A stretch of 53,322 bases of DNA from the NCBI GenBank assembly GCA_030616165.1, contig JAUWXV010000002.1, positions 1 to 53,322 on the forward strand. The letters run 5' to 3'. The DNA is from a bacterium (lineage in GTDB: Bacteria; SM23-31; JAUVVT01). Shown here in pieces: positions 9,839 through 45,422 of this stretch; within the stretch, counting starts at the first letter, position 1; each line of letters opens with the position of its first letter. Below the pieces are notes generated by a model, which made no database searches, was not told the origin of the DNA, and worked only from the letters and a program-made list of their open reading frames with translations. The translations under genes and the position numbers were made by a program.

Positions 9839-12800
9839 TCAATTTATGTTTTGTAATTTCAAGATTTCTTCAATAGTTTTTTCTACTCTCTCAATATCGG
9901 TTTGATTATCTGAACGCTTAATAAATTCCTTCAGTGATGAAATTGCGTTTTCGATCATACCCCTATTGTAATATAATAATCCCATAGACCAATATGGCAT
10001 AGTGAGAGTAGTATCAACTTCCAATGATTTTTTATAGAAGTCAAGTGCCTCATCGAGCCTGCCAATGCCTTCATAAATGGCTCCTAAATTTAAATATGCA
10101 AGTCCGTGATTTGGATAAAGTCGAATAGCCTGTCTGAGTTGAAAAATAGCCTCATCAATCATCTCTAATTTATAAAATGTAAAAGATGAATTGAACCTCA
10201 ATTCAGGATTGTTTGGGTCAAGTTTCAACGCTTCTCTATACTCTACTAATGCCTCTTTAAGTAAATTTACCGTAGCATAGCAATTAGCAAGACCTTGACG
10301 AAAATTCGCATTTTTTGGCTTTAATCTGACTGCTTCTTTAAACTCTTCCAAAGCCTTATCTATTTCATTATTTCCTAAATAAGCATTAGCAAGACCATAT
10401 CTTATATCTGCATTTTTTGAGTTTAATTTTTTTGCCTCTTCAAATTCTCTCAGAGCACTTAGATTCATACCACTATCGTTGAGGAAATAACCAATTCTGA
10501 AGCGGAGTTCACTGCTTTTAGGGTCAATGGCAATAGCCTTATTAAACATACTCAGGGCTTTATCCTTTTCCCCCAACTGCATATAAACTACTCCAAGTCC
10601 AATATATGGGTCTGAATCATTTGGATCAAGCTTCATAGCTTTCTCAAGATAATATATAGAATTCTCCAATTTATTTTCTTTTAAATAGTATAACGCCATC
10701 TCAGAGTAATTTGTAGGATTCAATGAATCTGCTTCAATCTTTTTCTTCAAGTTTATCTCTTCTTTTTCAATTTCCTCTAATAAATATTTGGCATTAAGGT
10801 CATCTGGATTAATCTTTAGAGCCTCATAATATATTTGACTTCTCATTTCGGGGATTCCTTCTCTGTCTGCTAAATGACCCACTATAACATGGTTAGAAGC
10901 TTCAGAATATTTTTCAAGTTCAGCCCTTATTCTATTTTTATCGTCTTCATCACTGCCTGCATTAATAAGATAAGGGAAAATAATCTTTCTAAATTTTAAA
11001 ATTTCAGAGATATTCTCCATTTCGTTTTCTATCCTGTCTGTCAGCAGGATGTCCTTTGAAAATTCGAGTAAGGGTTTATTATCAGTATTCATAGTGGCAT
11101 ATCTTGCCAATACTTTAATATCTTCTTCATTAAGTAGAAATCCATCAAGAAGAGCAACAGGATTGCTAAGATTGACTTCGCCAAGGTCTTCTTTTATTTT
11201 TTCATCGCCCATCATCTCAACAAAATGATTATAATCTAACCCGAGTCTATTTTTCATACCAATAAGGATTCCATGTTTATTGGTTGAATAACTTACATTC
11301 CAGAAATATGAATATGGAAAAACAGACTGAAAAGTTTTTAAAATCATCCTAAAGTCATTAGTGGCAAGGTGAAGGGGGACCCATGTCGAAACAACGCCAT
11401 TCTCATTTAATTTTCTACTTAAAGTAAGAAAATGGTCTTTTGTATATAGAGAAGCACAAGTACCCACAGTTGGATATGCCGAATAATTTATTATTACGTC
11501 GTATTTTTCATTTGTAAGAATGGCATAACTTTTACCATCCATTATTATAGGATTCAGTCTTTTATCTTTTATAACATCTTTATTCACATCAGAAAAATAT
11601 ATTTCAGCAGTTTTCAAGATATCCTCAGAGAGTTCTACCATATCAAGTCTGTCGACATTATGGAGTAAAACTGCATTGGACGTTTCACCATTTCCAAATC
11701 CAATCTGCATGACTTTTTTGGCATTCCCATGGATTAAAAGAGGAAGATGACCCTGGAGTTTTTGAGTAGTCCGAAGCATAAATTCTGTTCCTGCCACATT
11801 AGTCCCATCAATTGCAACACGATTCCCCTCGAAATAATATTCCGGATACGTGTGAAAAGTCACCGTTCCAGAAATTCCCTCTTTAAAATAGATTAATTCA
11901 CTTCCCTCTTCGAATCTATTTAAAAGTGGCAAAAATTTATCCTTTTTAATATAAAATGGCTGAATGACAATCAATACTAATAATATTGCTGTTATGGGAA
12001 CTTTAATTTGTAATTTGATGGTGGGAATGAGATAAAATACAGTTGTGCCAATTATAATATTTATAAAGGCGATAAACATTATTCCTTTTGGTATTCCAAG
12101 GAATGGAACAATTATAAATCCTGCAACAATCAGACCCAATAATGAACCTATTATATTAAACGAATAAACCTTACCAATAGAACTTCCCACCTTTTTAATG
12201 TTACCAGTCCAGACTTTTCCAACTATGGGGAAAACAGAGCCCATTAATAGCGTTGGTATAAATAATATAAATCCAGTTTCAACAAACCTTATTAAATTCC
12301 ATTTATACCATCCTTCCTCGCCAAACACATCAGCAAGTTTATTGTGAATATCTAAAAAATCACTTAAAAGATATACGGTTCCTAAAGCGACAAAACCAAT
12401 TAAGACTTCAATGAGTGAAAATAATTTTATTCCATCAAATCGGTCGGAGAGTTTACCACCAATATATCCACCCAGAGCGAGTCCAAATAAAAATGTGGTC
12501 AGCATTATAGTGAAAGTATAAACAGATGCTGTAATAATATAAATAAGAATCCTCGTCCATAAAACTCCATAAGCAAGTGCACAGAAACCGGATAGTGCAA
12601 ATCCATACAATACTACTTTTTCAATAGTTCTGGTATGCTCTATATTTTTAGTTTCAAGATTTTTTAACTCTGAAGTCGCGATAACTTCTTCTTTTAGGGC
12701 AGATTCTTCTATTGCTTCTTTCCTGCTCATTATCCATATAGAAATCCCTATCAAAACATTAATAACGGCAAATAAGTAAACCGATGCATTTACCCCAAAA

Positions 12801-13339
12801 GTGCTAATCATATAAAATCCAGCAAGAAAGCACCCGATTACCGCCCCGAAAGTATTTATACTATAAAGAACTCCTACTTTGCTTCCCAGGTCTGTTTTCT
12901 TTCTTATAAAATATTTACTTAATACAGGAAGAGTTCCTCCCATCATTGCCGTCGGAATAAGCATTATTAAAAATGAAATAAAAAATCCCGCAAAGCTCAA
13001 TATAAAGTAATTTAATCCAAATATGTCATATTTTAGAGAATAAAAATAATTCGATAAGTGAATGAAAAGTGGAATCAAAAAAGCAATAATACCAATACCT
13101 ATTTCGAGTGCGGCGAAGAATTTAATGGGGTTCTCCTTTTTGTCAATCAATTTACCAAAATAATAACTTCCCAGGGCAAGCCCCGCCATAAAAGCCGATA
13201 AAACAGTGCATACTGCAAGAGTTGTATTGCCAAGAAAATGGGTAAACATTCTTGTCCATATAACGGCATAAACGAGACATGCTGCACCCGATATAAAGAA
13301 AAAAACAAAAATAAATCCTCTTATTCTCTTGTTCCTCAT
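9839..13339 (-). CDS. Spermidine-synthase-like membrane protein fused to TPR repeats
   Basis: A 1166-residue protein; ATG with GGAGC about 6 bases upstream. Three parts are visible. Residues 1-470 are polytopic membrane sequence built from two similar modules, each opening with an SG..ALxYxxxWTR motif (residues about 17-30 and 246-260). Residues about 480-780 form a spermidine-synthase-like Rossmann domain (MQIGFGNGETSNAVLL, DMVELSEDILKTAE, DGKSYAILTNEKYDVII). Residues about 840-1166 carry at least eight tetratricopeptide repeats. Fused membrane/SpeE-like proteins are widespread and mostly uncharacterised; polyamine synthesis is not established for them. The TPR tail suggests a protein-binding scaffold. 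It is followed by the convergent terminator and preceded by ridA (82 bases). Confidence 0.85.
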   Translation of the reverse strand: MRNKRIRGFIFVFFFISGAACLVYAVIWTRMFTHFLGNTTLAVCTVLSAFMAGLALGSYYFGKLIDKKENPIKFFAALEIGIGIIAFLIPLFIHLSNYFYSLKYDIFGLNYFILSFAGFFISFLIMLIPTAMMGGTLPVLSKYFIRKKTDLGSKVGVLYSINTFGAVIGCFLAGFYMISTFGVNASVYLFAVINVLIGISIWIMSRKEAIEESALKEEVIATSELKNLETKNIEHTRTIEKVVLYGFALSGFCALAYGVLWTRILIYIITASVYTFTIMLTTFLFGLALGGYIGGKLSDRFDGIKLFSLIEVLIGFVALGTVYLLSDFLDIHNKLADVFGEEGWYKWNLIRFVETGFILFIPTLLMGSVFPIVGKVWTGNIKKVGSSIGKVYSFNIIGSLLGLIVAGFIIVPFLGIPKGIMFIAFINIIIGTTVFYLIPTIKLQIKVPITAILLVLIVIQPFYIKKDKFLPLLNRFEEGSELIYFKEGISGTVTFHTYPEYYFEGNRVAIDGTNVAGTEFMLRTTQKLQGHLPLLIHGNAKKVMQIGFGNGETSNAVLLHNVDRLDMVELSEDILKTAEIYFSDVNKDVIKDKRLNPIIMDGKSYAILTNEKYDVIINYSAYPTVGTCASLYTKDHFLTLSRKLNENGVVSTWVPLHLATNDFRMILKTFQSVFPYSYFWNVSYSTNKHGILIGMKNRLGLDYNHFVEMMGDEKIKEDLGEVNLSNPVALLDGFLLNEEDIKVLARYATMNTDNKPLLEFSKDILLTDRIENEMENISEILKFRKIIFPYLINAGSDEDDKNRIRAELEKYSEASNHVIVGHLADREGIPEMRSQIYYEALKINPDDLNAKYLLEEIEKEEINLKKKIEADSLNPTNYSEMALYYLKENKLENSIYYLEKAMKLDPNDSDPYIGLGVVYMQLGEKDKALSMFNKAIAIDPKSSELRFRIGYFLNDSGMNLSALREFEEAKKLNSKNADIRYGLANAYLGNNEIDKALEEFKEAVRLKPKNANFRQGLANCYATVNLLKEALVEYREALKLDPNNPELRFNSSFTFYKLEMIDEAIFQLRQAIRLYPNHGLAYLNLGAIYEGIGRLDEALDFYKKSLEVDTTLTMPYWSMGLLYYNRGMIENAISSLKEFIKRSDNQTDIERVEKTIEEILKLQNIN

Positions 13340-25853: not shown

Positions 25854-28760
25854 CTAATTTTTGCTTTTTAAAAAACATATTTCGACATTTTTATCAAACC
25901 ATATCGGATTAATATCTCTAAGATATTCGTGCCTGTTTTTATGACAGGTCAAAAGAATTACTTGATGCTCTTCTGCCAGTTCTGATATTATAAATTTCAT
26001 CCCATCTGCAAATCTTTCATCATCACTTGTGATAAATGGGTCATCCATAATGAAAGGAAGTTTCCAACCTGATTGTGAAAAATATTTCCCAAGAGCCAAT
26101 CTAATCGAGAGATAAATCTGGTCTTTTGCACCTGCACTCAACTGATAAACAACCTCCTTTTGACTGCATATCCTATTCCACTCCTTCGGTCTAACGGTAA
26201 AACTTAAATCAGAATCAAATTTCAAATCTTCGTAATTTTTATTAATTTTACCAAGAATTATATTTACACTACTATTTAAGATTAATGCCCAGTTCTTGTG
26301 ACTCTCTTTGGATATTCTTTCAAGAGCATCAAATGCAAGTTCAACTGAAGTTTTAAAATTTTTCGTTTTTTTAAGAATATCTTTTAAATTGGACAATTCA
26401 TTTAGCAGTTTTGGAAACTTTTCCCGATATTCTTTCATAACTGTACCTATTGATTCTGATAATTCCAATTTTTCATCCTGTATTTTTTTAAGTACCATAT
26501 CATTCTTTCTATACTCGTCATTATATTCAGCGGTGGATTTTTCAACCTCAAAACCTCTAAAATCCGGAAATTCCTTTACTATGCTTTCGGCTTTTTTTTC
26601 TAAAACTCTTATCTTAGCATTTTTAATATTAATGTCCTGATTGTTCAGCATAGAATTCTCTAAAGGTGGTATCAATTCGTTCTTCAGTTTTATATATCTA
26701 TTATATTCTTTGAACTTTTCCTTATATTTTTCAATTCCCTTATCTACATCCTCTTTTTCATCTATTTCAGATTCATCAAAAATCTTGTAAATTTCTCTTT
26801 CGATGGTCTCCTTTTCTTGCAATGCTGCATTAATTCGCTCTGTCTTCTCTTTTATTTTTTTATCCAAATTCATCTTATTAAGGTAAAGAGAGAAATATTT
26901 TTCAAGATTATTTTTAAATTTTTCACAAAACTCAACAGTTATGTCAGAAACATCCAAATCAGTATTAATCTTTTTTAGATACCGTAATATTTCCGATTTT
27001 ATTTCTTCTGCTTCTTTCTTTAATATTTCAAAGTCTTGATTCATTTTGTTGAGTGTATCAGTCCTTCCATTAAGTCTTTTGTAAAATTTGAATTTTTCGA
27101 CTAAGTCCTGATAATTTTCAAAATTATATTTCCTGCTTATACTCTCAATTTTGTTTTCAGCATTATCTTTTTCACTTAATAGTCTGCTTTTTTCTTCCTC
27201 AGATAATTCAAATTTGTTTTTCAAGTCGATATATTTATCACTTTCCATAGAATTTGCTGTTAAATATAATACAAAACCATAAACAGCGGCAATAATACCC
27301 AAAATCAAAGATGGAATCAGAAAAAATATTCCGAGAGTCAGGAATAAACCTAAAGTTAAAACTATAATTCCTGAAAAGGATAGAAGTATGCCATTTTTCT
27401 TTCTTGCTCTTCTGAGATTTATTATTTTATCTGTTTCTTCTTTTAAATTTTCAATTTCAGATATTGCTTCATTTATTTTAGAATTTTTTTTCCAGAAATA
27501 TTCATTATAATCTCCGATAAAATCCTTATCTTCGTCACTAACTTCATCAAATATCTTTTTCAATAATTTGTAATCTGCAAGTTTATAACCCTCATCTTTT
27601 ATTTTTTCTTTTTCACTTTCAATATCCTCTTTCTTTTCTTCTAATTTTTTTAAATTTTCTTTTAACTTGATTAAAAGAATTTCAATATCCTTTTTTTCGT
27701 TTTCGGTAAATTTTTTAAATTCCTCATAACCTTTCAACTCTTTTTCACACTCTTCCTTTATCTTTTCGACTTTTTCCATATCCGTTTTTTCATTCTTAAT
27801 ATCATCTTCTATACTTGACAGTTTACCCTGCATCTGTAAAAGTAAATCATTTTTATCAATTGGGAAATTAGATAAACGTTTTAACGATTCAAGTTCTTTT
27901 AAATAATTTTCCAATTTTTCTTTGTTTTTCTTATCTTGATGAAGTTGATTCTTTAATTCCTTAATTTCAGATAACTTTCCAAGATAATCCATCATCTTCA
28001 TATCTGAATTTATTTTTTGTTCTTTTTCGCTTAATCTTTCAATCTTTGTTATTTCGCTATCGACTTCCAGTCTTCTTTCATCAAGACTTTTGAGTTCGGA
28101 CTCGATTTCGGTTATTCTTTTATTAAGGTTATTTATCTCATTCTTGACCATTCCCTTTCCTTTTAAAGTATATCCCTGATATTTATTCAGAGCGGTATTC
28201 AAAACATCAATTGCATCAAGTGCAGTGGTATCACCGGATGAAGTGTCAACTATCTTTTGTATACTTTTTGTAATACTGTCAGAGTCTTTCGAACTTTGAA
28301 TTTCGTGCTGGCGAATTAAGGCGGTCTTTAAAAATACATCCCTTGGTAATTTCAGTAGAAACTCACCAACTGGGTATTCCCTCTTCCCTTTGTAAAAATC
28401 TTCACTTATATCCTTACCGGTTAATATATCATAAATGAAAACCTTATCCTTTTCAAAATCTCTTTTAATCAGCAGTTCCTTTTTATTAATCTCGATTTCG
28501 AGTTCAATTTCATAGGAATCATTATCCCATGGTTTCAATCTATCAAATTCTTTCATTTCATCTTTTTTTGCGCGAACTAAAGGAAACCCATATAAACCCG
28601 CCAATATCCCATCAACAAAAGTAGATTTCCCCTCTTCATTACTCTCAACTATCAAAGTAACCTTGTCAGGATTTAAAACGATTTCCCCATCAAGACAGCC
28701 AAATTTATTTGCTTTGAATCTCTTAATCTTCATATCGATTATCGTTATTAGCGTATTCAT
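25854..28760 (-). CDS. YhaN/SbcC-like coiled-coil ATPase with central membrane hairpin
   Basis: A 968-residue SMC/Rad50-type ATPase. The ATG at 28758-28760 has AAGGG upstream; the longer frame starts at TTG in a hairpin. The P-loop reads ESNEEGKST (39-47), with Glu replacing the first glycine. The ABC signature YQLSAGAKDQIYLSIRLALG is at about 870 and Walker B PFIMDDPF at about 903, followed by a D-loop region and LLTCHKN. Long coiled coils fill about 190-860. Where Rad50/SbcC carry a CxxC zinc hook there are instead two adjacent membrane helices (about 455-500, GIIVLTLGLFLTLGIFFLIP onward). This matches the YhaN type. It pairs with the phosphoesterase gene 41 bases upstream. Confidence 0.85.
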   Translation of the reverse strand: MNTLITIIDMKIKRFKANKFGCLDGEIVLNPDKVTLIVESNEEGKSTFVDGILAGLYGFPLVRAKKDEMKEFDRLKPWDNDSYEIELEIEINKKELLIKRDFEKDKVFIYDILTGKDISEDFYKGKREYPVGEFLLKLPRDVFLKTALIRQHEIQSSKDSDSITKSIQKIVDTSSGDTTALDAIDVLNTALNKYQGYTLKGKGMVKNEINNLNKRITEIESELKSLDERRLEVDSEITKIERLSEKEQKINSDMKMMDYLGKLSEIKELKNQLHQDKKNKEKLENYLKELESLKRLSNFPIDKNDLLLQMQGKLSSIEDDIKNEKTDMEKVEKIKEECEKELKGYEEFKKFTENEKKDIEILLIKLKENLKKLEEKKEDIESEKEKIKDEGYKLADYKLLKKIFDEVSDEDKDFIGDYNEYFWKKNSKINEAISEIENLKEETDKIINLRRARKKNGILLSFSGIIVLTLGLFLTLGIFFLIPSLILGIIAAVYGFVLYLTANSMESDKYIDLKNKFELSEEEKSRLLSEKDNAENKIESISRKYNFENYQDLVEKFKFYKRLNGRTDTLNKMNQDFEILKKEAEEIKSEILRYLKKINTDLDVSDITVEFCEKFKNNLEKYFSLYLNKMNLDKKIKEKTERINAALQEKETIEREIYKIFDESEIDEKEDVDKGIEKYKEKFKEYNRYIKLKNELIPPLENSMLNNQDINIKNAKIRVLEKKAESIVKEFPDFRGFEVEKSTAEYNDEYRKNDMVLKKIQDEKLELSESIGTVMKEYREKFPKLLNELSNLKDILKKTKNFKTSVELAFDALERISKESHKNWALILNSSVNIILGKINKNYEDLKFDSDLSFTVRPKEWNRICSQKEVVYQLSAGAKDQIYLSIRLALGKYFSQSGWKLPFIMDDPFITSDDERFADGMKFIISELAEEHQVILLTCHKNRHEYLRDINPIWFDKNVEICFLKSKN

Positions 28761-28764
28761 TACC

Positions 28765-28787
28765 CATCCCTTGTAATGCAAGGGATG
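28765..28787 (-). promoter_or_regulatory. Hairpin overlapping the ribosome site of the YhaN-like gene
   Basis: A perfect inverted repeat CATCCCTTG (28765-28773), 5-base loop, CAAGGGATG (28779-28787). In the minus-strand mRNA the arm nearest the start codon contains the AAGGG Shine-Dalgarno sequence, so folding would hide it. The upstream phosphoesterase ends 15 bases before the hairpin; terminating ribosomes could open it, giving translational coupling. It may also simply be a dispersed palindrome. Confidence 0.55.
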
Positions 28788-28801
28788 AAAAAGAAAGTAA
28801 G

Positions 28802-30010
28802 TTAATCTTCATATCTTGGTTTTACCGATTTTTGCGTTAACGCATCAAGCCCATAATAGATGGCATTCTCGATAATTATCCTTTCCGAATCGTCAGACGC
28901 ATTTGCCACGAGAGAACTTAACTCCTTAACGAATTTACTTTCAGTAGTATCTGCAGTATCAGGAATTTCAATGTATTTCTGAATATCATAATCTGGTTGA
29001 ACATCACTTTTATCGAATGTTATGTGAAAATAATCATCTTTTAAAAAATTTCCTGGAATTTCGATAATATTTCCCGGCGGGAATCTCCCAATTAATCTAA
29101 CGTAAACTATGTCGTTCTTATTCACTGTTTTCACTTTAACCTTTTCCTTAATTGCATTCAAAACCGCCTCGTTGTGATTCAAACCGGTGCAGTTAATAGA
29201 TATTTCATATATAGTTCTGTGGTCAATTTTTCTTTTTTCTATTTCGACTTTTCTATTTTCATAAATTTTCCCGATAATTATAAACTTTTCTCCACATTCT
29301 CTAAGATTTCTTCCCATCGGGCATCCCGCATAGGCGCCTCTTACATTTCCATCTGCATCCGTAACTTTAGAATATGAATGATAATGTCCGATTGCAGAAT
29401 AATCAAAACCAAGTTTAATAAGTTCTTCATCTGAAAAAGGAAGTGTTACTTTCTTATCTGGTGGACAGTATCCATCACGCGAACCATGAAAAACCAGGAT
29501 ATTTATGCTGTCTTTTCTTCTTGGAATATTACCTACCAGAAATCGTTCATCAAATGGGCGATTTTCAGAATGTGATATACCAGTAACAGATATACCCCTA
29601 CAATATGGCAAATCTATTGATTCAAAGGTATGATGTTTAAAAATTATTACATTATTAGACCAAACACTCTGCCTCTTCTCTGTCAGGAAATCAGGATTAT
29701 ACATACTGCTCGGCGAATAAAAATCATGATTGCCGGGAGTGATTATTATCGGTATTGGAGAAATACTTGAAAATTTATCTATCAAAAAATTTGTCGTATC
29801 CGCAGTGGAAGATTCAAAGTCTATCAAGTCTCCGGGAATTAAAACAATATCAATATCTTCATCCTTTACCATCTTGCAAATATTCGATATTATACCCTTA
29901 TGCTCCTCTTTTCTGATTTTGAGTTTGTCTGGGGGAAAATTCAACCTTGCAGAAAAACTTGAATCAAGATGAACATCAGAAACCTGTAAAAATTTTAAAA
30001 CATGAATCAT
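28802..30010 (-). CDS. SbcD/YhaO-like metallophosphoesterase (DNA exonuclease subunit)
   Basis: A 402-residue calcineurin-type phosphoesterase. Metal-binding motifs are complete: FLQVSDVHLD (D12, H14), VLIPGDLIDF, PIIITPGNHDFYS, LVFHGSRDG and YSAIGHYHSY. A C-terminal domain of roughly 150 residues follows, as in SbcD/Mre11-type nucleases. In such complexes the phosphoesterase is a Mn-dependent nuclease acting on double-strand ends, gated by the ATPase encoded next. The start is ATG with a weak AGGT site. It lies directly downstream of two helicase-nuclease genes and upstream of the YhaN-like ATPase, so a DNA-end-processing role is likely. Confidence 0.88.
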   Translation of the reverse strand: MIHVLKFLQVSDVHLDSSFSARLNFPPDKLKIRKEEHKGIISNICKMVKDEDIDIVLIPGDLIDFESSTADTTNFLIDKFSSISPIPIIITPGNHDFYSPSSMYNPDFLTEKRQSVWSNNVIIFKHHTFESIDLPYCRGISVTGISHSENRPFDERFLVGNIPRRKDSINILVFHGSRDGYCPPDKKVTLPFSDEELIKLGFDYSAIGHYHSYSKVTDADGNVRGAYAGCPMGRNLRECGEKFIIIGKIYENRKVEIEKRKIDHRTIYEISINCTGLNHNEAVLNAIKEKVKVKTVNKNDIVYVRLIGRFPPGNIIEIPGNFLKDDYFHITFDKSDVQPDYDIQKYIEIPDTADTTESKFVKELSSLVANASDDSERIIIENAIYYGLDALTQKSVKPRYED

Positions 30011-30090
30011 AATGATTTACCTGAGATCTATTATCTCCAAAATGTATTAAAAATGGCTAAAACATTAATCATAAAAAAGAAACGTAAAAA

Positions 30091-30123
30091 TTTTTCACTC
30101 ATTGCAAAGCAATGAGTGAAAAA
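30091..30123. repeat. Perfect 15-base inverted repeat between helicase and phosphoesterase genes
   Basis: TTTTTCACTCATTGC (30091-30105), AAA, GCAATGAGTGAAAAA (30109-30123). It lies between the stop codon of the downstream-most helicase-nuclease (30144) and the start of the SbcD-like gene (30010). In the minus-strand RNA the stem ends in a U run, so it could partly terminate or stabilise the helicase transcript. Confidence 0.8.
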
Positions 30124-30142
30124 TAATTATAAAGTTTCTTTG

Positions 30143-30168
30143 CCTACTTTCTTTTCAAAGAAAGTAGG
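30143..30168. repeat. Palindrome that supplies the helicase stop codon
   Basis: CCTACTTTCTTT (30143-30154), TC, AAAGAAAGTAGG (30157-30168). On the minus strand it encodes the last seven residues (LLSLKRK) and the TAG stop of the upstream helicase-nuclease. Related palindromes occur at 801-820 and 19832-19849. Confidence 0.85.
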
Positions 30169-33100
30169 TTTTCTTTACAAAGTCCCGTTAATCCACCAAA
30201 TTCGCAATTCCAGCAGTCTCTATCCTTATGAAGTGCTTCATAGATATTAAAATTTTCCTCAATAATACCATTTGCAGTCGATAAAACAAACTCCTTTATA
30301 TTTGGATTTCTTTTAACTTGATGCACTGTTTCTTCTTCAAGAAAATATATCTTCAATATCGGATTTTCAACATCCTCAAAGACACCTTCACTAACTGCAA
30401 GGTCATATATCTGCATCTGCATTTCATCGTCCTGCAAATTTTTTGTAGTCCCCTTTAAACCGGTTTTATAGTCTGCTATCTCCCAGATACCATTTTTCTT
30501 GTCAATTCTATCTATGAATCCCTTGATATGTATGTCGTAGTCCCTATAATCACAGTACCATAAATTAAACTCCTTTTCTGTGTAAATTGGCTGGGATTTA
30601 TCGAGTCCAAACTTTTTAAAATTAATAAATATTTTCTCTCCACGTTCTTTATACCCTTCTTCATAATTCTTTCCACTGACTCCATATCCAATTATCAATC
30701 TTTTTAATGATTCAGGATGGTCTTCTATGTTATAATAATTTTCTAAAATTTTATGCACACAGATACCAAATATTAATCTGCTGTATTTATCCTCTGAGTC
30801 TTTTGCATCAATCTTTTCGGTCTCTTTTTCTAATAGTGATAACCTGTAAACAGGAAATTTATACTCATAAATGTACTTATATTTTAACGGACAATTTTTA
30901 TATTCCTTCATCATCGAAAAATCCAACTTCATTATCTTTTTCTTTGGTGATATTTTTGTTTTTTCTTGCTTTTGTGAGTATGTTTTCAATAATTTTTCAA
31001 CCCTATTTTCCAAATCGACTCTATCTGAAATCTTTTCTTTGGCTGCCAATCTGTTTATCCCTATTTCACTCATCTTTACTTCGAGAACTTTATCAGCGTA
31101 TTTTTTATCGCCAAACTCATTGAGCATCTTTTTATAATAACTGGAGAGTTTCCCTTTTGATTGGGTTGCAGTTAAAAAGAGCATCTCTTTTGCTCTTGTT
31201 GTTGCAACATATTTTAATCTTATTTCTTCATTTTTTCTTTTTCCCTCCAATCTCAATCTCTCTTTTGCCTTGATATATTTTTCTGTTTTATCACTTCTGC
31301 TCCCAAGAATATCATCTTTATATTTTAAAACAAGCCCATAGCCAGAAAATTCTCCTTTTGAATTTTCCTTTTCTATATCAAGTAAAATCCTTGATTCATC
31401 TCTGAAATATCCATCCCTGATATCGCAAAAAAATACATAGTCAAACTCAAGTCCCTTCGCTTTGTGAATGGTTAAAAAAACCACCCTCTCCTTGTCAGTC
31501 TCTTCCGGTATTTCATCCTCTCCTCTTTCATCTTCAATTTTAAGTTCTAAATATTTCACAAAATCTGAAATAGAAGAATTTTCGTATTTTTTCTCGAACA
31601 ATTGACTCATTAAATAAATATTCTTAAGAATGTTTATTCTATTTCTAATAAAACTGTAATCACCCGAATAAATCATCTTAAAATACTTACTCTCATCAAG
31701 CAGGGTATAAATCAGGTTTGCCAGAGGAAGTTTATCCTTTTTTAAACTAAAATTTCTAAACAAATTATCCAAATTTGCTATTTTTTTCTTTGTATATCCG
31801 CTAATCTCTTTATTATTCAATATATTTTCAAAAATCAAAAAGATATTTACAAATTCTTCTTTCCTCCTATACCTTTCTTTCAATTCCTTAATAATACTGC
31901 CGATTTTCATCATTGCATCGAGATTTAAAGGATAAGGTGCATTCTCTAATATTCTTATAAGAGATGGAATATCGAAGGGATTCTCAAGAATTTTAAGGTA
32001 GGCAATAACATCCTTAATCTCTTCCCTGTCAAAGTAACCTCCTCCTATTGAACAGAAAGATATACCCTTTTCACGAAATACCTCCTCAAAAATTCTGGGA
32101 TACGTTTTCGACCTGAATAATACCGCAATATTATTTAAAGATATACCTTCTTTACTCAATTTTATAATCTCATTTGCAACAAATTCCGCTTCATTCTTTC
32201 TATTGTCGGAATAAAACATTTTTACTGCGACCTCACCCTTATATCCTTTTTTATCATTTTTTATTTCCAGAAATTTTCTTTTCTCGGAGAAATATGGGTC
32301 TTGAAATATGGTGAAATTTGCCAAATCCAATATTTCGTTATAAGAGCGGTGGTTTTCTTTAAGGAATCTTTCTTCTCCCGGAAATACTCTAATATTTTCG
32401 ATTTCAGCATCTCTCCATCCAAAAATAGACTGTTTATCATCGCCAACTACTGTTACATTTTTGAAATTGTCTTCTGATAAAAGTTTTAAAATCTCAAACT
32501 GACCGTAACTCGTATCCTGCATCTCGTCAATTAATATGTATCTGAATTTTTTTCGATATTTCTCTGCTACGACAGGATTATCTTTCAATAAATAATATGC
32601 CTTCAGTAAAATATCGCTGAAATCCAGAACCTTTTTCTCAACAATTTTTCTTCTATAATTGTTGTATAGTCTCGAATACAATTCTGCATATTCTAATTCG
32701 GTTTCATAATTGCTATCTTCTTTAAATTCTTCTTTATATTGTTCAATCTTTTTAAAAATAATCTTTTTAAAATAGATTTCATCAAGTAATTTTATCTTCG
32801 CTTTCTCTATAATCTCAAATCCACTTAATAAAATTCTCCTTATATCTGTCAGATTAATATTTTTCAAATTCAATATAAAATCCTTATCAGTCTTCGTTAT
32901 CATTTCATCTATGATTTCGTCCCTCAATATTCTTCTATCGGTATTATCCATAATTTTAAATTCACTGTCGATGCCACTTAAATAAGTATTTTCAAATATC
33001 AGTCTAAGCCAGAACGAGTCGAAAGTATATATGTTTGCCTTTAACATCTGATAATCATTGTCAATGACTTCTGAAACCTTTTTCTTTAAATTGAATGCAG

Positions 33101-33305
33101 CCTTCTTGGTAAAGGTCAAGGCAAGTATATTTTCAGGATTTATATTTTTTTCTAAGACTAAATGCAGGTATCTATATGACAGGACAGTAGTCTTCCCGGT
33201 TCCTGCACCAGCAACAATCTTCAGCGCCTTATCAATCGGGAATTTCACCGCATCTATTTGCGCCGGTGTAAATTCGGAATATATATCTCTTGAATTTTCT
33301 GCCAT
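30144..33305 (-). CDS. UvrD/RecB-type helicase-nuclease (AdnB-like), second of a tandem pair
   Basis: A 1053-residue superfamily 1A helicase fused to a RecB-type nuclease. Helicase motifs are canonical: GAGTGKT (33-39), DEMQD (260-264), GDDKQSIFGWRD, NHRS, TIHKAKGLEFDYVF (about 612-625) and VATTRAKEML. The nuclease has an N-terminal GICVHKILE histidine, then GFIDRID and EIADYKTG (about 925-947). Cysteines for an iron-sulfur staple are at about 805 (NCPLKY), 1031, 1034 and 1043. Such enzymes unwind and cut DNA ends for recombination. The ATG has no Shine-Dalgarno site and lies 18 bases after the preceding helicase gene, suggesting coupled translation and a heterodimer. The last residues come from a dispersed palindrome. 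Confidence 0.9.
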   Translation of the reverse strand: MAENSRDIYSEFTPAQIDAVKFPIDKALKIVAGAGTGKTTVLSYRYLHLVLEKNINPENILALTFTKKAAFNLKKKVSEVIDNDYQMLKANIYTFDSFWLRLIFENTYLSGIDSEFKIMDNTDRRILRDEIIDEMITKTDKDFILNLKNINLTDIRRILLSGFEIIEKAKIKLLDEIYFKKIIFKKIEQYKEEFKEDSNYETELEYAELYSRLYNNYRRKIVEKKVLDFSDILLKAYYLLKDNPVVAEKYRKKFRYILIDEMQDTSYGQFEILKLLSEDNFKNVTVVGDDKQSIFGWRDAEIENIRVFPGEERFLKENHRSYNEILDLANFTIFQDPYFSEKRKFLEIKNDKKGYKGEVAVKMFYSDNRKNEAEFVANEIIKLSKEGISLNNIAVLFRSKTYPRIFEEVFREKGISFCSIGGGYFDREEIKDVIAYLKILENPFDIPSLIRILENAPYPLNLDAMMKIGSIIKELKERYRRKEEFVNIFLIFENILNNKEISGYTKKKIANLDNLFRNFSLKKDKLPLANLIYTLLDESKYFKMIYSGDYSFIRNRINILKNIYLMSQLFEKKYENSSISDFVKYLELKIEDERGEDEIPEETDKERVVFLTIHKAKGLEFDYVFFCDIRDGYFRDESRILLDIEKENSKGEFSGYGLVLKYKDDILGSRSDKTEKYIKAKERLRLEGKRKNEEIRLKYVATTRAKEMLFLTATQSKGKLSSYYKKMLNEFGDKKYADKVLEVKMSEIGINRLAAKEKISDRVDLENRVEKLLKTYSQKQEKTKISPKKKIMKLDFSMMKEYKNCPLKYKYIYEYKFPVYRLSLLEKETEKIDAKDSEDKYSRLIFGICVHKILENYYNIEDHPESLKRLIIGYGVSGKNYEEGYKERGEKIFINFKKFGLDKSQPIYTEKEFNLWYCDYRDYDIHIKGFIDRIDKKNGIWEIADYKTGLKGTTKNLQDDEMQMQIYDLAVSEGVFEDVENPILKIYFLEEETVHQVKRNPNIKEFVLSTANGIIEENFNIYEALHKDRDCWNCEFGGLTGLCKENLLSLKRK

Positions 33306-33323
33306 TTTAAAAATATAGTAATT

Positions 33324-36300
33324 CTATAACTGTGATTGGTTGCATATTTTCAGGTATTCGCATTTGTAACCACGATAAGGTTTACATTCTGTATCCTTAC
33401 CCCTATCGAAATCAGGTCTTTCCTTTGCAATCTCATCAAGAATAGAGACTAACCTTGATTTTACCTGTTCCATCATCTCCGGACTAACATGTTTTATTCT
33501 TCCTTTAACATCAAGATTCATTATAGGAATTTCAACCTTTTCGCATTCTCGCTTCTTGTCAAAATCGAAGAATATATATGTAAAAAAGGACGGATTAATG
33601 CCAAGAGAATCTTTTGCACCGTAGTAATATACAGGCATCTGAAAATCTTTATCATATTTATAAAACAGGTTTATCAGTTTATTCTCTTTACCCTCACCGC
33701 TCTTTTTATAGTCAATTATCTCATAACCGTCTTCTCTCTTGTCGATTCTGTCAATCTTTCCTGAAATTATATATCTATTATTTAGAAAGAATTTAAAATC
33801 CTTTTCAGTTTCATAGACATCTTTACAATATTTTCCATATTTATTTATATAATCAAGAATTCTCCCGGTAACATATTTTTTCCATATAATCTCGTAAAAT
33901 TCGCTTTCAAATTCACCTTTATATCTTTCCCAGACATCATTTAATATTTCTTTAAAAAGGTTTTCATCAATTTGTGGATATTTTTTCTGATTATGAAGAT
34001 TACGCACAATCTCGTGTTCAATGCTTCCTATAGTCAGATGGATACTCTTAGCGCCCATTATATCTAATATTCTTGAATAATAGAATTTTCTTGGGCATTC
34101 CAGATAACTTTTTATTGATGTATGACTGTATATAAAGTCAGTACCGATATTCCTGCTAACAGGTGATTCTGGTAAACAGGGATTTTCCAATAATAAATAA
34201 GTTTTATCCAAATACCCCAATTTATATTTATCAAGCATATTTGAAAATTTCTCTTTATCAAGTCCATATCTAATAAATCTTTTTAAGACAATCTCCAATT
34301 CTTCTTTTGAAGTTATGTGTGCATTTACTTCTTGGTCATATACCTCCAATTTTGTAACCTTTTCAAAAAAATCAGAATATCCGTTTTCTTCATAAATCAC
34401 CGAATGACCATTGACTTTAATCTTTTCGCAATTTTCTCTGGTAATTTCTCTTCCGCCGAATATATTTTTCAAAAATATTGAAGGTCTGACTTCTTCGACT
34501 GCCGGTATATTATTCGGGAAGGAAAGAAAAACTCTTTCTCTTGCTCTGGTCAGGGCTGTAAGAAATAAATTTTTTTCTCTTTTTATGTGTTCATTAAAAT
34601 CCACTGCATTTGTAAAATATAATTCAATATTCTTAAGTCTTTTGAATCTTTTCTGGAAATCATTAATATCTTTAACATAAAAAAATCTTTCGCCAGAAAA
34701 ATCAGCAGGAAAATTATTTTCTGTTAATAATGGAATAAAAACAACGGAAAATTCCCTTCCCCTCGACCGATGTATCGATGTTATTTTCACGCTGTCTGAC
34801 TCTTTCTCTCTAATTCCCAAATTGTCAAAAAGATTTTGTTTATTTTCTTCAAAAAAATTAAGAAAATTCTTTAAACTTACTTCCCATTTCATTGTGGATG
34901 AAATTTCATAGTAATCAATGGTAATATCAATGAACCTTTTCAATACAGGATATTTATCATCTTCAAATAAATCATATAGAAAAACACCATAGATAGCTTT
35001 TAAAATAAATTCGGGAAGGGATAGTTTTTGTGAAAATCTTTGTAATAAATCAAACCTGTTAATAAATGATTTGACTTTATCAATTAGTCTTTCATTTTCA
35101 AAATTGATAATATTCGAATCGATATTTTTCATAACATCATAGATGCCTCTCTTCCCCCTTTTAGACGCATCTAATAGGGACTGCAATTCAATTGGACTGA
35201 ATCCCGAAAAGGAGTTCGACAATAATTTTTTAAACACTTTGTCATCGTATTGATTGTCTAAAAGTCTTAAATACACCAAAAGATAATTCAATTCTTTAAA
35301 ACAGGAAATATTTACAGAACCCTCTGTTTGATTGGGAATTTTCAAATAATCCAAAACCTGCTTGTAAATAGACCCATACTTATTAACGTTTCTAAGTAAT
35401 ATTGCAAAATCTGAGTATGTGAATCCTTCATTGGTATCTGAATCATAACTGATGCTTTTCGTTTCTGAACTGATAATCTTTTTTATCTTTTTCCCAATAT
35501 AGAACGCCTCATCTATTATACTTCTTTCAAGAGCGATAGTAAAAAGACTATTTGGACAATTATAAATAGACCTCGGAATCTTCATAAAATCATGCGTTCC
35601 AAAATCATAAATTTTATCAACAGCATCCAATATCTGATTATCTGACCTGTAATTAGTCTCAAGATAAACAGTCTTGGTATTTGGAAAATCTTTCAGAAAC
35701 CTCTCCATTACATTCTTTGTCTGTTCTCCTCTAAATCCGAATAAAGCCTGTTTTTCATCACCTGTAATAAAAATTTTATCTAATTTATCTGTCAGGACTT
35801 TTATAAGTCTGTATTGTAATGGATTGATATCTAAAAAATCATCGACAATAATCTTCTTAAACCTATTTATATATGATTTAGATTTCTCGGTATCCTCAAA
35901 AAACTCTATGGTCTTTAAAATTGCATCCTCAAAATCAAGATATTCATATTTTTTTAATATCTCAGAATAGGTTTTATATATATTCTTTGCATCAAGAAAC
36001 CGCACTTCAAATTTACCTGCATTTATTACATTTTCAAACTCCTGAACTGAAATTCTATTCTGTTTCAAAAATCTGATAAATTCAGAAATCTCACGTTTAA
36101 TATCTATGAATTTCCATCTATATCCTTTTGGTCTTATATTCTTTACTATTTCATCTATTATAGTATTTCTTTTAAAATCGCTCAGTATTCTAAAATTCGG
36201 ATACATTCCTTCTATCAGGTTCCAATTTTTTTTCAGTATTTTCAAACAGAAGGAAATGATTGAATTAACATAGTTTTCAGAATAATTTTTTCTGACCAGT

Positions 36301-36539
36301 TTATAAATGTTTCTTTCTATCTGCTCTTCAGAATTTGAAATACCGCAAAATATGAGTACTTCATCACTTTTATAATCATACTCAAGCATAAGATATGCAG
36401 CATGACAACAAACAACTCTGGTTTTTCCTGTTCCTGAACCGCCGGAAACAAATATATAATTATCCTTTGATTTTACAGCATCTTTTTGACTTTGATCAAG
36501 GTCGTTAAATACTACATAAAAATTTTCTTTATCCTTCAT
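33324..36539 (-). CDS. UvrD/RecB-type helicase-nuclease (AdnA-like), first of a tandem pair
   Basis: A 1071-residue paralogue of the next gene with the same plan: SF1A helicase then PD-(D/E)xK nuclease. The P-loop GGSGTGKT (33-40) is intact. Walker B is VDDFLD (D233, D234, D237), with Asp in place of the catalytic Glu. Motif III is GDEKQALFGFRG and motif VI LTALTRARERVFL. Motif V is altered to SIHRSRGREF (about 587-596), where KGLEF is usual. The nuclease (GKIDRID, EIIDYKKS, about 925-940) looks intact. Cysteines at about 814 (LECPRKF), 1052, 1060 and 1066 fit an iron-sulfur staple. The helicase motor may therefore be weaker than its partner's. Its start overlaps the DUF457 gene by 11 bases. 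Confidence 0.88.
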   Translation of the reverse strand: MKDKENFYVVFNDLDQSQKDAVKSKDNYIFVSGGSGTGKTRVVCCHAAYLMLEYDYKSDEVLIFCGISNSEEQIERNIYKLVRKNYSENYVNSIISFCLKILKKNWNLIEGMYPNFRILSDFKRNTIIDEIVKNIRPKGYRWKFIDIKREISEFIRFLKQNRISVQEFENVINAGKFEVRFLDAKNIYKTYSEILKKYEYLDFEDAILKTIEFFEDTEKSKSYINRFKKIIVDDFLDINPLQYRLIKVLTDKLDKIFITGDEKQALFGFRGEQTKNVMERFLKDFPNTKTVYLETNYRSDNQILDAVDKIYDFGTHDFMKIPRSIYNCPNSLFTIALERSIIDEAFYIGKKIKKIISSETKSISYDSDTNEGFTYSDFAILLRNVNKYGSIYKQVLDYLKIPNQTEGSVNISCFKELNYLLVYLRLLDNQYDDKVFKKLLSNSFSGFSPIELQSLLDASKRGKRGIYDVMKNIDSNIINFENERLIDKVKSFINRFDLLQRFSQKLSLPEFILKAIYGVFLYDLFEDDKYPVLKRFIDITIDYYEISSTMKWEVSLKNFLNFFEENKQNLFDNLGIREKESDSVKITSIHRSRGREFSVVFIPLLTENNFPADFSGERFFYVKDINDFQKRFKRLKNIELYFTNAVDFNEHIKREKNLFLTALTRARERVFLSFPNNIPAVEEVRPSIFLKNIFGGREITRENCEKIKVNGHSVIYEENGYSDFFEKVTKLEVYDQEVNAHITSKEELEIVLKRFIRYGLDKEKFSNMLDKYKLGYLDKTYLLLENPCLPESPVSRNIGTDFIYSHTSIKSYLECPRKFYYSRILDIMGAKSIHLTIGSIEHEIVRNLHNQKKYPQIDENLFKEILNDVWERYKGEFESEFYEIIWKKYVTGRILDYINKYGKYCKDVYETEKDFKFFLNNRYIISGKIDRIDKREDGYEIIDYKKSGEGKENKLINLFYKYDKDFQMPVYYYGAKDSLGINPSFFTYIFFDFDKKRECEKVEIPIMNLDVKGRIKHVSPEMMEQVKSRLVSILDEIAKERPDFDRGKDTECKPYRGYKCEYLKICNQSQL

Positions 36540-37110
36540 ACTTATACATTTTTTTCTTTAATATATTTCCAATTAATATTATTAAAATTCCCACTAATGA
36601 AGAAATTATTATTTCCATTATCACAGGAAAAAAGTTGTAGTATCTGAATACGGTTTGATAGTTGAGATATCCATCCTTAAATAATGCGCCAGAAAATAGG
36701 ACGATAGATGACCTGAACAGGCTGAAACTGAAAGGAAAAAATATTGGTAAACCGAAGCCGTTTATTTCTCCAGTATCAATTGTAAAAAGGTCGAGAATTA
36801 TATGAAAGAGATATAAAGCAGTAAATAGAAAAGCACGGGATAGAAAAAATCTCTTTTTGAACAAAAATGTTAATAAAGAAAACAAAAGTGCGAAGACTAT
36901 TCCGGAAACGAACGAATGTGTTATACCATGATGGTATTTACTCGGTAAACCGACAAAAATTCCTGGTATTATATCAAAATCGGGGACAGCAGAAACAAAA
37001 ATTATCAAAAAATAACTCAAAAAATTATTTTTAAAAATATTTTTAACACCCTTTTCAAAATTTGAAGCTATAGACAACCCAACTATACTGTGAGCAATCG
37101 GTGAAGGCAT
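36529..37110 (-). CDS. DUF457 membrane protein (YdjM-like, metal-dependent hydrolase family)
   Basis: A protein of 193 residues from the ATG at 37108-37110, chosen because family members begin MPxPxxH. The longer frame to 37173 would translate a dispersed palindrome. Four to five membrane helices are visible, with conserved His/Asp clusters: MPSPIAHSIVGLS, VPDFDIIPG, YHHGITHSFVSG and LFHIILDLFT. The E. coli relative YdjM is a LexA-regulated inner-membrane protein of unknown function. Here the gene overlaps the first helicase-nuclease gene by 11 bases, placing it in a DNA-repair operon. No good ribosome site was seen at the chosen start. Confidence 0.8.
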   Translation of the reverse strand: MPSPIAHSIVGLSIASNFEKGVKNIFKNNFLSYFLIIFVSAVPDFDIIPGIFVGLPSKYHHGITHSFVSGIVFALLFSLLTFLFKKRFFLSRAFLFTALYLFHIILDLFTIDTGEINGFGLPIFFPFSFSLFRSSIVLFSGALFKDGYLNYQTVFRYYNFFPVIMEIIISSLVGILIILIGNILKKKMYKYEG

Positions 37111-37163: not shown

Positions 37164-37219
37164 GGACAGGCATTCATGCCTGTCCATCCATTATTATGGT
37201 CAGACAAGAATGGCTGACC
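37164..37219. repeat. Pair of GGACAGRCA-family palindromes
   Basis: GGACAGGCAT (37164-37173), TC, ATGCCTGTCC (37176-37185) is followed 12 bases later by GGTCAG (37198-37203), 10 bases, CTGACC (37214-37219). GTAGG precedes the first and CTACCGTCTAAT follows the second, as at other copies. The pair lies between the Pgi stop and the DUF457 start. Confidence 0.8.
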
Positions 37220-37258: not shown

Positions 37259-38656
37259 TTAAATAATATATTTTTTCTTTTTTCTGGTTTCAATTTCTTC
37301 TTTTTTATTTCCAATCCCATTTTTTCTTAATAGATTATATGCAAACTTTTTTCCCTCTTCCACACCGGGTTGGTCAAATGGATTGATATTATAGAGATAG
37401 CCGGTAAATGCAGTTTGAATCTCAAACATATAAAACAACTGTCCCAGAGTAAATTCATTTATTTCAGGTAACGATATTAAACAGTTTGGTCTGGCGTTTT
37501 TTGTCAGAGTGGCTTCTGTAGCGATCCGTTCAGCATGAAAAAGTTCATTTAGTGAATGACCAGAAAGATAAGAAGGTCCCTCAATCCAATTGTAATGAGA
37601 AACCATTTCAATTTCTGATTTAAATTTTTCGACGCATAGCATTGTAATCACCTTATCATTTGGACCTTCGATATATAATTGAAGTTGGGAATGATGATCA
37701 GTTACTCCAAGCGCCTTAACCGGGGTTTGACCAGTGTGGACGATTTCTCCATTCAAAGAATATTTTTTCCCAAGGCTTTCAGCCAAGAGTTGTCTATACC
37801 AGTCGACTATTCCAAATAATGCATCCGAATACGATATCATCACTGAAATATTTTTGCCTTTTTTTGTATCAAAGAGATAATGCAGAACACCATTCATATA
37901 AGCAGGATTTTCCCAGATATTGAAATTTTCACAGGTTTTATCCATTGAAATAGCGCCTTCTAAGAGTTTATTAATATTAATTCCAGATACGGCGGATGGT
38001 AAAAGACCAACTGGTGATAGAACCGAAAATCTTCCTCCAACGCCTTTAGGTATAATAAAACTTTTCATTCCCTCTTCATCTGCAATCTTCCTAAAGTTCC
38101 CATTTTGTTCCTTAGTAGTGAATACAACATGCTTTTTAATGTCCTTATTTCCTAATGCTTTTTTTAATCTTTCAATAAATATGAGAAACTGTGCATTTGT
38201 TTCAGCAGTATTTCCAGATTTGCTGATAAAATTAAAACAGGAGGATTTCAGGTCAATAACATCAAAAATTCCCGAATGAGTATCCGGATCGATATTGTCC
38301 AGAAAAAATACTTTTGGATTTTTTCCTCCTTTATCTTTTGACAGAAGTTTATAATAAGGATGGTTTAATCCTCTTTGAAGTGCTATTCCTCCAAGAGCAG
38401 AGCCACCTATCCCCAAAACAATAAAATATTCAAACTCATTCTTAATATAATCCGCATAATCATTTATATCCTTTACCACATCTTCCTGATAGGGCAGTTC
38501 AAAAAATTTGATTTCTCCTCTCATTCGCATACTTTTTAAGTTCGTGTCTATTCTTTCACACTTTTTGATTAATGAATTTATCTCTTCTTCTGATATTCCG
38601 TTCTCTATTCCAATGAAATCAGCCATCATATTATTAAAATCATACTTTATTTCCAT
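37259..38656 (-). CDS. pgi: Glucose-6-phosphate isomerase
   Basis: A 465-residue enzyme; ATG with GGAG 6 bases upstream. Family features: FIVLGIGGSALGGIALQRGL, NFISKSGNTAETNAQFLIF (phosphate-binding loops), PKGVGGRFSVLSPVGLLPSA (signature 1) and DHHSQLQLYIEGPNDKVIT. GHSLNELFHAERIATEATL holds the ring-opening histidine region. The length fits the shorter bacterial form. It interconverts glucose-6-P and fructose-6-P in glycolysis and gluconeogenesis. Together with the glycogen synthase gene just upstream and the PPi-PFK, it places central sugar metabolism in this block. The gap to the glycogen synthase gene is 191 bases. Confidence 0.95.
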   Translation of the reverse strand: MEIKYDFNNMMADFIGIENGISEEEINSLIKKCERIDTNLKSMRMRGEIKFFELPYQEDVVKDINDYADYIKNEFEYFIVLGIGGSALGGIALQRGLNHPYYKLLSKDKGGKNPKVFFLDNIDPDTHSGIFDVIDLKSSCFNFISKSGNTAETNAQFLIFIERLKKALGNKDIKKHVVFTTKEQNGNFRKIADEEGMKSFIIPKGVGGRFSVLSPVGLLPSAVSGININKLLEGAISMDKTCENFNIWENPAYMNGVLHYLFDTKKGKNISVMISYSDALFGIVDWYRQLLAESLGKKYSLNGEIVHTGQTPVKALGVTDHHSQLQLYIEGPNDKVITMLCVEKFKSEIEMVSHYNWIEGPSYLSGHSLNELFHAERIATEATLTKNARPNCLISLPEINEFTLGQLFYMFEIQTAFTGYLYNINPFDQPGVEEGKKFAYNLLRKNGIGNKKEEIETRKKKKYII

Positions 38657-44336: not shown

Positions 44337-45422
44337 TTATTGCAACATAATTAGTTTTTTCGTATCTATAAAGTCTCTTATTTTTATTTTATAAAGATAA
44401 ATTCCACTGGAAACTTTTGTACCAGATATGTTCGTTCCATCCCATCTAACTAAATAATGTCCTGCAGTTTTCTTTTCATTTACTAAAGTTTTCACATCTT
44501 GACCGAGAATACTATATATATTCAAAACTACAAAACTATTAAAAGGTATCTGATAATTAATAGTTGTTTCTGAATTAAATGGATTAGGATGGTTTTGAAA
44601 TAATTTGAAATTATCAGGATGAAATAAATCGCCATATTCTTCTTTAATACCTGTAGTTTGTGATAAGTCAGTCTCCTCTGCTTGTTGTACTGGACCTATA
44701 CCGTTACCCAAATCTTCATGGACAAAGACAACAATATGACAGAGCCTGTCGTTATAGTCTGAATTTAATGAAAAATTATAATTTTTCTGGATACTTGTAT
44801 TATTGCTTAATGGGGAAGTATTCAGAACTTCACCAAATACTCCAGTAATCATCTCCCGCACTACATGCTTATGGTAGTAAGGAGATATTTCAGTATATGG
44901 TTTTCCGTAGATTTTCTGCGTATAGTTGAGACTGTCTTCACTTATCACCACATTAATACGATATGTGCCCGATAAGTCGGCAAGGGTTTTAAGGTTAACA
45001 TTAAGACTTACATTCCGTGTCGAGGAATTATAATCACCTTCTAATGATATTGAAAATGTCGGGCTTACTGAAGATCGTTCAAGACATCTTTTCCCCCAAT
45101 CACCGCGGCTTATTGGAATTTTCGAAGCGCCAGGGAATTGAATCCTGTCAATAGCCGCCTGAGGATAAGCAGGCGACATTGCATCGATTAACTGGTCTCC
45201 ATAGGAAGTACTCATTGGATCCGATTTATGGTAAGCTATAACAATTACATCATTTCTCTCCGACAATATCTGTTTAATAATATCCGCTCCATAAGGACAC
45301 CAACCGCACCAGGTTCCTGTGAACTCCTCCAGTAAAACCTTTCGCTGACCATAGACAGTTAAGGAAATAAAAATAGTCAACACAAAAATAGAGAATAAAA
45401 TATTTCTTATCATTTTAATCAT
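44337..45422 (-). CDS. Omp28-like thioredoxin-fold protein with T9SS sorting domain
   Basis: A 361-residue secreted protein; ATG with AAGGAAGAAGGAA upstream. Signal peptide of about 25 residues (cleavage near VYG/QRK). A thioredoxin-like CGWC (C39, C42, in EEFTGTWCGWCP) opens an Omp28-type domain to about residue 250. The final ~95 residues form a type IX secretion C-terminal sorting domain: FQNHPNPFNSETTINYQI, LNIYSILGQDVKTLV, GHYLVRWDGTN and SSGIYLYKIK. Such cargo is exported by T9SS and often held on the cell surface. The upstream neighbours encode a barrel protein and a TlpA-like thioredoxin, suggesting a secreted-redox module. Confidence 0.88.
   Translation of the reverse strand: MIKMIRNILFSIFVLTIFISLTVYGQRKVLLEEFTGTWCGWCPYGADIIKQILSERNDVIVIAYHKSDPMSTSYGDQLIDAMSPAYPQAAIDRIQFPGASKIPISRGDWGKRCLERSSVSPTFSISLEGDYNSSTRNVSLNVNLKTLADLSGTYRINVVISEDSLNYTQKIYGKPYTEISPYYHKHVVREMITGVFGEVLNTSPLSNNTSIQKNYNFSLNSDYNDRLCHIVVFVHEDLGNGIGPVQQAEETDLSQTTGIKEEYGDLFHPDNFKLFQNHPNPFNSETTINYQIPFNSFVVLNIYSILGQDVKTLVNEKKTAGHYLVRWDGTNISGTKVSSGIYLYKIKIRDFIDTKKLIMLQ

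Follow-up and report, generated by a model that had tools for sequence, protein, structure and literature searches.

HelA-HelB, a tandem pair of helicase-nuclease genes outside Actinobacteria that probably encodes an AddAB/AdnAB-class enzyme

Two tandem helicase-nuclease genes lie among five adjacent minus-strand genes in contig JAUWXV010000002.1 (assembly GCA_030616165.1; the window analysed here is the whole stretch of 53,322 nt, forward strand). They raise the question of whether the five genes form one DNA-end-processing system, and to which class of enzyme the helicase pair belongs. A first-pass annotation had placed all five in a compact locus at 28760-37110. Open reading frames and Pfam matches confirmed the five genes at their places, but the lower limit of this span leaves almost the entire SbcC-like gene, whose far end is at 25854, outside. 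The features of the locus are the following:

36529-37110, minus strand: YdjM/DUF457-like membrane protein (PF04307, 56.1 bits against a cut-off of 29; likely start ATG at 37110)
33324-36539, minus strand: HelA, 1071 residues, with UvrD-helicase, UvrD_C and PDDEXK_1 domains, a C-terminal RecB-family nuclease and Fe-S cysteines; putative AddB/AdnA-type subunit
30144-33305, minus strand: HelB, 1053 residues, with UvrD-helicase, UvrD_C and PDDEXK_1 domains, a C-terminal RecB-family nuclease and Fe-S cysteines; putative AddA/AdnB/RecB-type subunit
30090-30124, minus strand: predicted intrinsic-terminator-like hairpin of 16 pairs followed by a T run (-21.6 kcal/mol, z -8.55), at the 3' end of the HelA-HelB unit
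28802-30010, minus strand: SbcD/YhaO-like metallophosphoesterase, 402 residues (Pfam metallophosphoesterase)
25854-28781, minus strand: SbcC/YhaN-like ATPase, 975 residues (Pfam AAA_27), with a membrane hairpin within the coiled coil; likely start at 28733

The 11-base overlap between the YdjM-like gene and HelA and the 18-base gap between HelA and HelB had been given correctly. Pfam and hydrophobic segments also bore out the identities of the SbcD/YhaN-like pair with its membrane hairpin and of the YdjM-like membrane protein. A perfect palindrome (GGACAGGCATGAATGCCTGTCC-like stem) at 37164-37185 overlaps the start of the longer YdjM open reading frame; it was considered as a repeat family and rejected, as only one further near copy is present in the genome. 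Elsewhere in the window, an Omp28-family protein (44337-45422, minus strand) whose sorting tail is of the Por-secretion type hints at a type IX-like secretion system, and in a 1166-residue protein (9839-13339, minus strand) a spermidine-synthase domain occurs together with an MFS-like part and numerous TPR repeats.

The five genes had been described as tightly arranged, which did not hold for the whole locus. HelB ends at 30144 and the SbcD-like gene starts at 30010, leaving 133 bases between them. This intergenic region has the terminator-like stem-loop at 30124-30090 (none of the shuffled sequences was as stable) and a second hairpin at 30142-30169. With what looks like an intrinsic terminator between them, HelA-HelB and the SbcD/SbcC-like genes are most likely transcribed separately.

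Gene order in relatives, the check named beforehand, also went against the five-gene arrangement. In blastp searches against the window proteins, no YdjM, SbcD or SbcC homologue was found beside HelA-HelB in the other loci carrying the pair (several of these contigs end near the pair, and their flanks are incomplete). The SbcD-like and SbcC-like genes of two of the genomes (G060 and G029) sit on other contigs as a two-gene unit of their own, and YdjM-family genes in the other pair-bearing genomes are located elsewhere where present; otherwise YdjM, SbcD and SbcC genes were not detected in these genomes. Thus, the five genes are apart in relatives, the helicase pair alone persists, and the unit is HelA-HelB; the YdjM-like and SbcCD-like neighbours are best explained as genes independent of it. 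A five-gene, membrane-associated end-processing system would account for the collinearity of the genes in the window, the overlap of YdjM with HelA, and the hydrophobic segments in YdjM and the YhaN-like ATPase. Against this stand the predicted terminator and the neighbours in relatives, on which the five-gene system was dropped as hardly credible. The proposal that end processing takes place at the membrane is likewise unsupported, since it rests solely on neighbours that relatives do not share; no hydrophobic segment was found in HelA or HelB.

The anatomy of the two proteins was computed directly (domains, catalytic residues and cysteines). Pfam and alignments confirmed two tandem UvrD-RecB fusions on the AdnAB plan, each with its own nuclease and four iron-staple cysteines. 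In each nuclease the catalytic residues (H, D, DYK and Q..Y) are present, along with all four cysteines. HelB has all the UvrD motifs in the alignment (AGAGTGKT, TFTKKAA, DEMQDT, GDDKQSIFGWR, NHRS, TIHKAKGLEF and TTRA). HelA retains motifs I, III, IV and VI (GGSGTGKT, GDEKQALFGFR, NYRS and ALTRA), and motifs Ia (CGISNSEE), II (DDFLD) and V (SIHRSRGREF) are altered, which suggests that the window HelA motor probably hydrolyses ATP weakly or not at all. Its relatives are graded: the HelA motor is nearly intact in Abyssobacteria and G125, worn in the window, G213 and G122, and decayed in an AddB-like manner in G231 and G218. In the candidate division B38 HelA it is the nuclease residues that are lost, and the DYK motif is gone. 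The mycobacterial AdnA motor has Walker motifs, and ATP hydrolysis by it was not detected in a 2026 study (PMC13309787), so there is nothing unusual about a quiet second motor within the AddAB/AdnAB class.

Pairing of the two genes extends across distant lineages. Ten further loci were found (three Abyssobacterial genomes, G263, G125, B38, G231, G213, G122 and G218), and HelA lies upstream of HelB in all of them where both genes are readable. One of the Abyssobacterial genomes is Ca. Abyssobacteria SURF_17, where the end of the contig truncates HelB. In candidate division B38 the two genes are approximately 4 kb apart, with several unrelated genes between them (L132:11472-15276). The HelB-like protein of G231 (L234:9650-14299, plus strand; 1549 residues) carries a second SF1-type helicase, Upf1/DNA2-like by eye, C-terminal to its nuclease. 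The pair was found in none of the other five genomes of the phylum of the window (63-83% complete; six examined in all), so among close relatives it is not conserved. One of these five, G004, of the same class as the window, has instead a 2052-residue open reading frame (L219:7560-13718, plus strand) whose N-terminal half resembles AddA and whose C-terminal half resembles AddB; the latter half of this natural AddA-AddB fusion ends in Fe-S cysteines. In a scan of named genomes, the relatives included Ca. Abyssobacteria and candidate division B38, and most matches were proteobacterial UvrD; matches listed in a plasmid collection were only of the UvrD/PcrA/Rep type.

Immediately upstream of the pair, both in the window (37259-38656, minus strand) and in G218 (L237:6644-8029, minus strand; 41% identity, E 4e-115), is a gene for phosphoglucose isomerase. 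In both cases a small membrane-protein gene is located between it and the pair, YdjM-like in the window and VanZ-like in G218. The B38 phosphoglucose isomerase gene (L132:3-689, minus strand) is about 7 kb from the pair. This neighbourhood may reflect either chance or old synteny.

Three PDDEXK_1 proteins are present in the genome of the window (~90% complete): HelA, HelB and one single-chain fusion. This points to HelA-HelB as the only two-subunit candidate for end resection found there. The single-chain fusion, on contig C112 (genome G000, L051:2573-5350, plus strand; 925 residues), is a UvrD-nuclease with Fe-S cysteines, and an RNase_H_2-type exonuclease gene follows it.

The kinship of the pair was analysed in motor trees of 44 and then 53 rows. 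Identities in all comparisons are 12-30% and the branches are long, and deep placements may be artefacts. One of the AdnAB references was recognised by its 71% identity to part of the M. smegmatis AdnA sequence in the PDB. HelA formed one clade (support 100/100 with 44 rows and 100/99 with 53 rows). HelB grouped with AddA and RecB (100/98 and 97/93 respectively), away from the actinobacterial AdnA and AdnB motors, which were sisters to each other (99/97 and 100/96). AddA and RecB fell weakly among the HelB lineages in the 53-row tree; the HelB proteins did not come together as a clade in the unconstrained trees, but a single HelB clade was not rejected (p 0.236). In the nuclease tree, HelA, AddB and AdnA were split from HelB, AddA, AdnB, RecB and the single-chain fusions (97/96; 96/97 for the first group in another tree).

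The first-pass annotation had assigned the pair to the AdnAB plan rather than to RecBCD or AddAB, and had proposed a tree of both helicases as a check. The domain plan is indeed that of AdnAB, but AddAB has the same layout, and by kinship HelB goes with AddA and RecB and the HelA nuclease with AddB as well as AdnA. No RecC or RecD, which would be the mark of RecBCD, was found beside HelB among the locus neighbours scanned, all of which belong to other families. The pair might also be AdnAB proper, an orthologue of the mycobacterial enzyme that is present outside Actinobacteria by descent or transfer. The plan and gene order are identical, HelB matches mycobacterial AdnB at 2.6e-22 and the AdnA nuclease at 2.8e-4, and the HelA nuclease shares its group with AdnA as well as AddB. 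The motor clade of HelA with AdnA, for which the AU test gave p 0.037 with 44 rows, was not rejected in the larger set (p 0.097 with 53 rows). However, a HelB(5)+AdnB clade was rejected (AU test, p 0.020), as was a single clade of all four groups (p 0.006); the AdnA and AdnB motors are each other's sisters, and actinobacterial AdnB is without the Fe-S cysteines that HelB carries. Orthology with AdnAB is not supported by the trees and AU tests, and we consider it unlikely.

Profiles and predicted folds were compared with both subunits of AddAB. In profile-profile comparisons, the best partner of AddB was HelA (465), ahead of the single fusions (382), HelB (300) and AdnA (293), and AddA scored 977 against HelB. 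Among solved structures the HelA profile reached B. subtilis AddB (3.1e-25), and the NCBIfam AddB model matched the Abyssobacterial HelA motor (5.7e-31). The window proteins themselves are below the curated NCBIfam cut-offs (HelB 172 bits against 708 for AddA; HelA 17.5 bits against 486.5 for AddB). With the nuclease domains alone, a PDB search gave a weak match of HelB to AdnA (E 0.025) and no meaningful match for HelA. The single-chain predicted models of HelA and HelB had mean pLDDT values of 74 and 72.5. The HelA model aligned with AddB (Z 26.3 over 873 residues) and the HelB model with AddA (Z 23.7-25.5 over 781-820 residues; Z 25.5 over 781); these full-length matches have a large rmsd, and domain placement in the models is unreliable. 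UvrD-type helicases outscored the AddAB subunits in the fold comparison, but they cover the motor only. AdnA chains were not among the matches listed (best 50, one chain per entry), and no inference is drawn from this. Trees, profiles and fold together argue that, in an AddAB-class enzyme, HelA is the subunit of B type and HelB that of A type.

The two proteins could instead be independent single-chain UvrD-nuclease fusions, brought together by chance or duplication and acting in defence or accessory repair. The HelB nuclease is near the single-chain fusions in the tree and the highest profile score of HelB is against them (1268); such fusions have been surveyed and are partly linked to defence (PMC5704561), and PADLOC yields many GajB-type UvrD matches. 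However, the pair recurs in constant order in the ten further loci, HelA is a distinct clade with a B-type nuclease, and neither GajA nor another defence gene was found among the neighbours scanned. We regard independent fusions as very unlikely. Gabija and other defence systems were rejected as an identity: the PADLOC matches, GajB included, are generic UvrD, and GajA is absent among the five proteins scanned.

HelA and HelB therefore probably assemble into a single heterodimeric helicase-nuclease, a member of the AddAB/AdnAB class that resects double-strand ends for recombination. Motor and strand roles are assigned by analogy with AddAB, for which the B. subtilis enzyme is well established. 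The heterodimer would load onto DNA double-strand ends. HelB, as the counterpart of AddA, AdnB and RecB, would use its intact UvrD motor to move the complex in the 3'-to-5' direction on the 3'-ended strand, which its nuclease could cut. HelA, as the counterpart of AddB and AdnA, would mainly split and channel the DNA with its motor fold (Walker A is kept), and its Fe-S-stapled nuclease would cut the 5'-ended strand. The HelA motor fold may perhaps also scan for a Chi-like signal. We infer this polarity and strand assignment, with the resection role and Chi scanning, from the known enzyme.

Most likely, to judge from the sequences, HelA-HelB is a deep-branching relative of AddAB in which the two nucleases, the two Fe-S staples and a large part of the second motor persist. 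A common view is that AddAB and RecBCD became asymmetric as a more symmetrical ancestor lost functions. HelA-HelB might be a surviving form of that ancestor, with two UvrD-type motors, two nucleases and two Fe-S staples; this is a possible reading, which we advance tentatively. If it is true, the HelA series from intact through worn to AddB-like motors records the stepwise loss of the second motor. A HelA-HelB family outside Actinobacteria makes that loss directly testable, its natural variants are material for the study of two motors sharing one DNA end, and the pair has some bearing on how AddAB and RecBCD arose. According to a large survey, the AdnAB type is found exclusively in Actinobacteria (PMC6452273). 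No paper describing a tandem HelA-HelB family outside Actinobacteria was found, which is weak evidence of novelty, as the search covered few subscription papers and did not include the founding ones on AdnAB.

Compared with known systems, the SbcD/SbcC-like pair of the window resembles YhaO-YhaN in having a metallophosphoesterase followed by an adjacent Rad50-like ATPase with a membrane hairpin; it differs in nothing notable and is unlinked to the helicase pair. The single-chain UvrD-Cas4-like fusions (PMC5704561) share a UvrD motor and an Fe-S RecB-family nuclease, and HelB is similar to them. However, these fusions stand alone, whereas HelA and HelB are paired and the HelA nuclease is AddB-type. 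AdnAB of Actinobacteria is also encoded by tandem genes and shares the two UvrD-type motors, the two nucleases and the Fe-S cysteines of the first subunit. By contrast, AdnB has no Fe-S cysteines in three references while HelB has them, and a clade of HelB with AdnB was rejected. AddAB (RexAB) is likewise built of two subunits that both combine a UvrD-type fold with a RecB-family nuclease; its B-type gene lies upstream of the A-type, its B-type subunit has an Fe-S staple, and HelA resembles AddB and HelB resembles AddA by trees, profiles and fold. The differences are that HelA still has most of the helicase motifs lost by AddB, which keeps Walker A without the others; that HelB has Fe-S cysteines, which most sampled AddA lack and two have; and that both proteins score far under the curated AddA and AddB cut-offs. 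Our verdict is that HelA-HelB is AdnAB in plan but appears to be nearer to AddAB by descent.
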